Positions 3,660-4,822 of a stretch of 64,000 nt of DNA are shown here, one piece after another. The notes beneath the pieces were generated by a model. That model was not told the origin of the DNA. It saw only the letters and a list, made by a program, of their open reading frames with translations, and ran no database searches. Within the stretch, counting starts at the first letter, position 1. Every line of letters starts with the position of its first letter. Origin of the DNA: Kappaphycus alvarezii (taxonomy: Eukaryota; Rhodophyta; Florideophyceae; Gigartinales; Solieriaceae); contig NADL03000689.1 of the NCBI GenBank assembly GCA_002205965.3, positions 496,001-560,000 of the forward strand. The letters are read 5' to 3'. A program made the translations under genes and the position numbers.

Positions 3660-4822
3660 ATGGCGAGGACGAAGCTATTGGCTAGGTTGAGCACGGGAGG
3701 AAAAGCGCCCCGGGAGAAGATCGCTACAAAGTCCGCGTGGATGTCAAGGGAAGCGGACGCCGAAGCCCAGTCCAAACTACCTCCGCAGACAAGGGCACTT
3801 CTTGGAAGGTCGGACATTACTAAGATCAACACATGTCGCCAAAAGAGTCCGATTTCGTTTTTTCACCTCTGGGTCTCCGAGCATGACGAGGGTTTGCGCT
3901 TGTGACTTTCCATTCCTATTTGGGAAGCATATAATGGACGCAGTTTACGTCCAGCCTACCAAGGAGCTTACAAAGGAGGTCGCCTGCCAATTGGGCTTGA
4001 CAGAATCCCTTTATGACTCCCGTACGTATAAGAAGGTGTCAGAAAAAGACTGTATTGTCAAGTCTATAGTATGGGACGAGGAGGAAGCGTTGTACAAGGG
4101 AGAAGATGAGGCCACCAGGGAATTCCATATTATCCTTCTATACACCCTTTCCTTTGAGGTGGATGCACTTCCTTCATGGACAGTATCGACGAGGAGGGTT
4201 TATTCATGCTGGGTTCGGACACTCGTTGGGAGGCGATCTTTGAAAACTACGAATGGTGCCAGGAACACCCTGGCCGGAAGCTTCTTCTTTCCTTCACTCG
4301 CTCTCGGGAACCCCGCGATGATGAAACCAAGTACCGATCTTTCCCGCTCTTTAAGACCCCGTTCGTTGACCAGACAGAAGGGTGCATTGGAGCTTCCATC
4401 GCAAATAGATTGCGAGAATTAGGGAAGGAGGACAACGCAAAGCTTTGTTTGGCTACTTTAGGTCAAATATGGCTAGATGCCACGCGAATCACTTAAGAGG
4501 ATTCCGTATCCGAGATCTACGGGATGCCCAAAAGCACCTACCCCCCAGGGAGATTTTGCTCGAAAAACCCCTGCCAATGTACTCTTCTGTTAAATCTGCA
4601 TTGGCCTTGAACCCTGCCGTCTATATCGTCTCTGTAGAAGGTTCCAACGGGGTCAGGCACTTTGTTGCGATGAATACTCGGACGGGTCACCTTCTCGACC
4701 CTGCTGAAAAGTTCGTTCTTGAGCTCTCCGAGAAGTCCTTGGTTGAGTGCGTGGGCGGGAGTTCGACCTTCATCACGATACTGGAAGTTCGAAAGCTGCC
4801 ACTTAGAAGTGAACAGGCATAG
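3660..4822 (+). pseudogene. Histone H3 N-terminal tail fused to a cysteine-protease-like protein, frame-disrupted
   Basis: The ATG at 3660 opens with MARTK, [10 protein letters not shown] and ATK spaced as in histone H3 residues 1-28. Against canonical H3, K4, K14 and K23 are kept, K9 is Leu, K18 is Glu, and position 27 is Met. No histone-fold helix is recognisable downstream. The frame stops at 3905. A second frame (about 3860-4170) and then a third segment (about 4175-4495) continue with acidic helical sequence and TEGCIGASIANRL. The last segment (about 4490-4822) has GVRHFVAMNTRTGHLLDPAEK. Cys at GCIG, His at RHF and Asp at LLDP could form a papain/C39-like Cys-His-Asp triad. Two or three frame changes mean either decay or unrecognised short introns. 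A protein of about 385 aa is implied. The neighbours are transposons, so I infer a mobile-element gene that borrowed a host histone tail. Confidence 0.6.

Follow-up and report, generated by a model that had tools for sequence, protein, structure and literature searches.

The gene that begins at position 3660 of the DNA studied here almost certainly joins a copy of the N-terminal tail of histone H3 to a non-histone body inside a Ty3/gypsy element. The DNA is a stretch of 64,000 nucleotides from the genome of the red alga Kappaphycus alvarezii (the window). The H3-tail gene is an accessory gene of the LTR retrotransposon. The chance that the tail protein is an H3 decoy countering the silencing of its own retrotransposon was judged from the sequences to be about even. 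The features of the tail gene and its carrier are listed in Table 1.

Table 1. Positions of the H3-tail gene and of the retrotransposon features in the window.
Feature	Position	Strand	Evidence
H3-tail-like N-terminus (Met + residues 1-28)	3660..3746	+	20/29 identical, ungapped, begins at ATG
Broken H3-tail gene with putative cysteine-protease body	3660..4822	+	tblastn with P0001, four pieces, E 1e-37
Gypsy RNase H and integrase (RT_RNaseH, Integrase_H2C2, rve)	5289..7010	-	Pfam
Gypsy reverse transcriptase (RVT_1)	7062..7940	-	Pfam, E 4e-25
Gag-like ORF with zinc-knuckle motifs	8586..9779	-	Pfam PF16588 zinc-finger match; position
Retrotransposon copy as far as seen	3116..9779		Homology to other copies

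The frame opened by the ATG at 3660 ran to a stop at 3905 and encoded 81 aa. An H3 tail at the start of this gene had been proposed from the sequence alone, and the comparison bore this out: 20 of 29 residues (Met counted) were identical to H3 without gaps. A phmmer search of PDB with the 81-aa frame returned 133 sequences with E up to 1. The best was 1f66_A at 6.1e-6, whose alignment placed residue 1 of the window frame on H3 residue 1, and the best 60 of the 133 matches were all H3, H3 variants, H3 chimeras or H3 peptides. As described in the original prediction, K4, K14 and K23 were present in the window copy, while K9 was replaced by Leu and K27 by Met. The window tail also differed from H3 at Q5, T6, K18 (Glu), Q19, L20, A24 and R26 (Trp).

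Pfam assigned no family to the 81-aa frame or to the three frames after it. The expected absence of a histone fold behind the tail was thus confirmed by the lack of any Pfam histone match in the window frames and in the five relatives scanned. Three changes of frame in the interval from about 3902 to 4505 disrupted the window copy, whose pieces lay in different frames at about 3660-3902, 3904-4155, 4158-4445 and 4448-4822. A tandem repeat with a 58-bp unit (2.2 copies) was located 5' of the tail gene at 3343..3475 (+). A fragment of a true H3 gene was ruled out, as the body resembled no histone family in Pfam or in the alignment of relatives. Chance resemblance to H3 was ruled out by the PDB match, the tail-bearing relatives and the copies in the same genome.

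The gene had been described as lying in a transposon region. This description had to be corrected: the gene itself belongs to a gypsy element, whose ORFs occupy 5289-9779. Reverse transcriptase, RNase H and integrase were found by Pfam in that order on one strand of the window. Homology between the window and other copies started 488-544 bp before the tail and extended beyond +5000 into gag, up to the end of the fetched DNA. Across 20 fetched loci and the window, homology ran from a few hundred bases 5' of the tail gene across its whole length to pol and gag, and in the better-preserved pairs it was nearly continuous for more than 5 kb. Pol (RNase H-integrase) was antisense to the tail gene in all 17 of the 20 loci that had it, as a rule some 1.6-3.3 kb downstream from the start of the tail; the other three (L016, L029, L033) gave no pol match.

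Tests for LTRs at both ends covered two copies, L015 and L019. In L015, direct repeats of 286 bp with 98.3% identity were found at -737..-452 and +6069..+6353 from the tail ATG. The LTR ends were TG...CA, and AGGGG stood on both outer flanks as a 5-bp target duplication. The insertion in L015, about 7.1 kb long, is therefore complete and fairly young; its pol was split into several separate frames. L019 had a second LTR pair, which was interrupted, and no convincing LTR pair or terminal inverted repeats of the element were found in the window. Read in the gag-pol direction, the order was 5' LTR, gag, pol, antisense H3-tail gene and 3' LTR. Reverse transcriptase, RNase H, integrase, LTRs and the 5-bp target duplication are shared with Ty3/gypsy LTR retrotransposons, whereas the extra antisense ORF with the H3 tail is not. 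The adjoining pol in 17 of 20 loci, together with the LTRs and target duplication of L015, identifies the tail gene as an accessory gene of the element.

The surroundings of the element were also inspected. A broken gene at 435-2053 (-), facing away from the tail gene, was considered as a partner of the element and rejected. It had no relatives at E 0.01 among 4563 candidates, and it lies outside the element, beyond the point where homology with the other copies begins. On the other side, a Tc1/mariner-like element with a DDE_3 fragment adjoins gag at 9856-11338; its terminal inverted repeats (9856-10023 and 11176-11338) were about 89% identical. The region 11729-15359 contained a reverse transcriptase at 12604-14559 and a weak Dam-methylase match below the cut-off, and is perhaps a DIRS-like element. 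The host genes GLE1 (573 aa), Nup84/107 (1041 aa) and HAT1 (480 aa) stood in a row at 18633-25252, each as a single open frame.

Other loci joining the tail to a non-histone body were sought in the assembly containing the window (336 Mb, 884 contigs). The 81-aa query gave at least 135 matches, the window among them, with E of 1e-3 or better, so the window gene is not a lone copy; this number is a lower bound, as 150 of 307 candidates were scored. The tail was read in 115 of the 135; in the other 20, the match starts elsewhere than at the tail. Two entries, L011 and L014, covered the same places as L026 and L018 and were removed, and identical tails occurred in three pairs (L045/L046, L075/L125 and L122/L123). 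Many copies were decayed. Open frames reached 491 aa among the matches, and that of L015 was 475 aa counted from the tail ATG.

Relatives were also searched with the four window pieces joined by X. Fourteen proteins were obtained at E 0.01 or better; ten were relatives, full or partial (P0001-P0010), and the other four contained histone domains. Seven of the ten relatives (P0002-P0008) were named Chondrus crispus. The H3 tail was present in all ten, beginning at the predicted Met in nine and at residue 17 in P0001, and the similarity continued through the body. Several Chondrus clusters held 4-10 member sequences each, which suggests many copies in Chondrus. A profile search, in which 8000 candidates were scored, added P0015-P0023. 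Five of these (P0018, P0019, P0020, P0022 and P0023) included the N-terminus, and all five carried the tail. No full-length relative without the tail was found among the 8000 candidates, a number small enough for tail-less relatives to have escaped notice.

Several candidates were not accepted as relatives. P0044 was dropped from the counts of 16 tails below because its body match to P0010 (E 0.075) was not significant. Viral contigs contained no relative among the 35 pattern matches examined. Bacterial and archaeal contigs gave 30 pattern matches and six confirmed loci, five of which were H3 genes judging by the sequence 3' of the tail; the sixth (L004) had a canonical tail, after which the fetched DNA ended. 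Two other proteins with H3 tails were observed. P0037 (745 aa) had a near-perfect H3 tail in mid-protein and is possibly a second, independent H3-tail capture. We take the remainder of P0037 to resemble fungal reverse-transcriptase-related genes, a likeness that Pfam did not support. P0035 (602 aa) had an N-terminal H3 tail on a von Willebrand factor A domain protein, with K4 replaced by Arg and K9 and K27 kept.

Conservation of the tail was examined in a set of 16 tails with aligned bodies, consisting of 15 from other sources and the window. K4 was kept in 16 of 16, and K23 and Ala1 in 14 of 16 each. K9 was kept in three and K27 in one (P0010); elsewhere position 27 was V, L, F, I, M, R, Q or G. 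Because R8 was altered in all three tails that kept K9, ARKS was found at 7-10 in none of the 16, and the motif was missing at both the K9 and K27 sites in every tail. The minimum number of changes was counted on a tree of the 16 bodies built with the tail left out. K27 had the most changes of the 29 positions (10) and K9 was second (8), followed among the lysines by K18 (3), K23 (2), K14 (1) and K4 (0). T3, K4, A7, S10, T11, G12, G13 and A25 did not change. Thus 18 of 24 lysine changes fell at K9 and K27 (binomial 3.6e-5, with the six lysines assumed alike). R2, R8, Q19, L20 and T22 were variable too. When nine own-genome copies were included (24 rows), the counts were 11 for both K27 and Q19, 9 for T22, 8 for both K9 and A29, and 0 for K4.

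The tail is more conserved than the body. In pairs of relatives with bodies less than 35% identical (30 of the 45 pairs among ten relatives), mean identity was 68% in the tail and 25% in the body. Within one subfamily, 14 of 15 pairs had dN/dS values of 0.23-0.70 and the remaining pair had 1.03, and the single pair from the window's subfamily (L018/L026) gave 0.65.

In the window's own genome, K9 was found in none of the 115 tails (L in 105, F in 5, stop in 2, and W, T and M in one each), nor was K27 (V in 43, M in 41, I in 18, T, F and N in 3 each, A in 2, and others). Owing to the shared ancestry of these copies, the two zero counts represent few events rather than independent ones. The residues kept were K4 in 105, K14 in 57 (R in 50), K18 in 83, K23 in 110 and R26 in 91. 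Arg26 was followed by Val27 in 41 tails, by Met27 in 30 and by Ile27 in 12, so that 42 of the 115 had Arg26 then Met or Ile27; exact AARMS occurred in 20. Met27 was also carried by P0006. The selective loss of silencing lysines claimed in the original prediction held across the family: without exception in the 115 own-genome tails, and in the 16-row set with K9 retained in three tails, all altered at R8, and K27 in one.

True H3 genes were used as controls. At six H3 loci obtained with a pattern leaving position 9 free, ARKS stood at 7-10 in six of six and K27 in five of six. The own genome gave 26 histone-family matches. Among the ten that were read, L126-L128 were complete H3 genes, canonical at K9 and K27; L129 and L130, in which H3 was broken in six-frame reading, were excluded from the count. 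A less favourable control was given by 27 histone-bearing protein matches, with R9 in 13 and K27 in 21, drawn mostly by a profile in which Arg and Ala are frequent at position 9.

The body contained a Cys, a His and an Asp that were invariant in seven of seven full-length relatives (C240, H332 and D345 in P0002), and the same residues were found in the window pieces, L015 and L016. An AlphaFold model from ten sequences was of low confidence (mean pLDDT 63, pTM 0.43); it placed Cys240 in the first turn of a helix (237-251), His332 in a strand (331-337) and Asp345 just past the next strand (342-344), a layout shared by papain-like cysteine proteases and deubiquitinases. No named relative of the body was found above chance in PDB by sequence or in Pfam. 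The body may be a papain-like cysteine protease.

The family pattern supports an H3 mimic that would be blind to K9/K27 silencing, since neither lysine occurs in the 115 own-genome tails and few tails of the 16-row set keep one. A tail that is neither substrate nor docking site for silencing, with K4 retained, would fit nearly all copies. We infer that the tail protein binds and titrates H3-tail factors and so opposes silencing. It would act as a decoy in solution, drawing the writers and readers of H3 tails. With A1-R2-T3-K4 and most acetylatable lysines kept, the tail would interact with activating factors and sit in the substrate grooves of the silencing enzymes. As its own K9 and K27 positions could not be methylated, no HP1 or Polycomb reader would be recruited. 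The outcome would be less H3K9/K27 silencing around the element, and the protease domain would cut whatever the tail captures. The decoy is favoured by the better conservation of the tail than of the body, the dN/dS values below 1, the many changes at K27 and K9 on the 16-row tree, and the canonical K9 and K27 of the three host H3 genes. The own genome also gave four VEFS-box (Su(z)12-type) matches above the curated cut-off, which indicates by sequence that this marker of PRC2 is present. Roughly half the repetitive elements of Cyanidioschyzon, a red alga, are under H3K27me3 (PMC5405695), and PRC2 targets transposons in several lineages (PMC8788455). The points counted against the decoy included the shared ancestry of the own-genome copies, Arg at K14 in 50 of 115 tails, the tie of Q19 with K27 and the excess of T22 over K9 in the 24-row tree, the decayed copies, the one pair with dN/dS of 1.03 and R9 in 13 of the 27 histone-bearing matches.

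A stronger form of the decoy is possible, though we lean against it. In this form, a free tail with K27M or K27I and K9L would poison PRC2, and possibly H3K9 methyltransferases, in trans; the protease would destroy the trapped complexes, and the element would break the Polycomb and heterochromatin silencing of its host with an independently evolved, oncohistone-like weapon. Met or Ile at position 27 inhibits PRC2 but Lys or Arg does not, and EZHIP loses its inhibitory effect when the Arg before that residue is exchanged for an acidic one (Jain et al. 2019, PMC6513997). Poisoning of PRC2 would be possible for part of the family only, because the window copy has Trp26 and the Val27 copies fall outside the Met/Ile form.

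The tail could instead be an address label for readers of H3K4 and of acetylated K14 and K23. It would bring the element protein to active chromatin, where it might, for instance, direct integration or transcription; the loss of K9 and K27 would then have served to avoid a pull to heterochromatin. The retention of K4, K23 and Ala1 in tails with aligned bodies is consistent with such a role. So is the N-terminal placement of the tail, which PHD-type readers of A1-R2-T3-K4 require. However, the tail is on a separate antisense ORF that is neither integrase nor gag, and the frequent Arg at K14 also argues against it. This explanation is unlikely.

A closer partnership of tail and body was judged more improbable still: the tail would hand H3-tail-binding proteins to the attached protease, or would be the protease's own substrate, cut off after synthesis. 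It would agree with the invariant Cys, His and Asp and with their placement in the low-confidence model, and clipping of Plasmodium H3 tails by a cathepsin C-like activity is reported (PMC6446197). Against it stand the body, which has no Pfam or PDB sequence match above chance, and the weakness of the model. Least probable by far is the capture of an H3 fragment by chance, leaving a tail with no function. The broken state of the window copy and many others would be expected of such a relic, but the tail is far better kept than the body across deep divergence, T3, K4, A7, S10-G13 and A25 are unchanged on the 16-row tree, and dN/dS is below 1 in 15 of 16 pairs.

The H3 decoy was compared with known systems. 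EZHIP is a PRC2 inhibitor and histone mimic (PMC12713659). EZHIP/CATACOMB of placental mammals is likewise a non-histone protein that mimics the K27 region of H3 with Met for Lys; of the 115 own-genome tails, 30 have R26-M27 and 12 have R26-I27. It differs in being a host gene of mammals whose motif is short and C-terminal, whereas here the whole H3 tail is copied at the N-terminus, the gene belongs to a retrotransposon, and K9 is missing as well. EZHIP is the nearest functional parallel to the tail protein, with no claim of homology. The H3K27M and H3K27I oncohistones share the same residue and context, with AARMS exact in 20 of the 115 tails; they are true histones in nucleosomes, while the tail protein has no histone family match. 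Influenza NS1 and SARS-CoV-2 ORF8 are also parasite proteins imitating an H3 motif. These viral mimics have short ARKS-like motifs with the lysine retained, whereas about 28 residues are copied here and ARKS stands at neither site in the 16 tails. VANC of the Arabidopsis VANDAL elements is a transposon-encoded anti-silencing protein that acts via DNA binding and loss of DNA methylation, without an H3 tail; the proposed outcome, a transposon protein relieving its own silencing, is the same. No earlier report of a transposon-encoded H3 tail was found in a literature search made mostly with multi-term queries and mostly without subscription papers.

If the decoy reading is true, the family would represent a retrotransposon-encoded H3-tail mimic with matches at more than 100 sites of one genome, in which the silencing lysines are substituted and the activating lysine remains. 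It would be nature's equivalent of the K27M oncohistone and could supply inhibitors directed at H3. The decoy idea can be tested directly with peptides of about 30 residues. Should the poisoning of PRC2 be true as well, an arms race would be acting on the two silencing lysines. As evidence from nature, the decoy would also strongly indicate that transposons are limited by H3K9/K27 methylation in this lineage.
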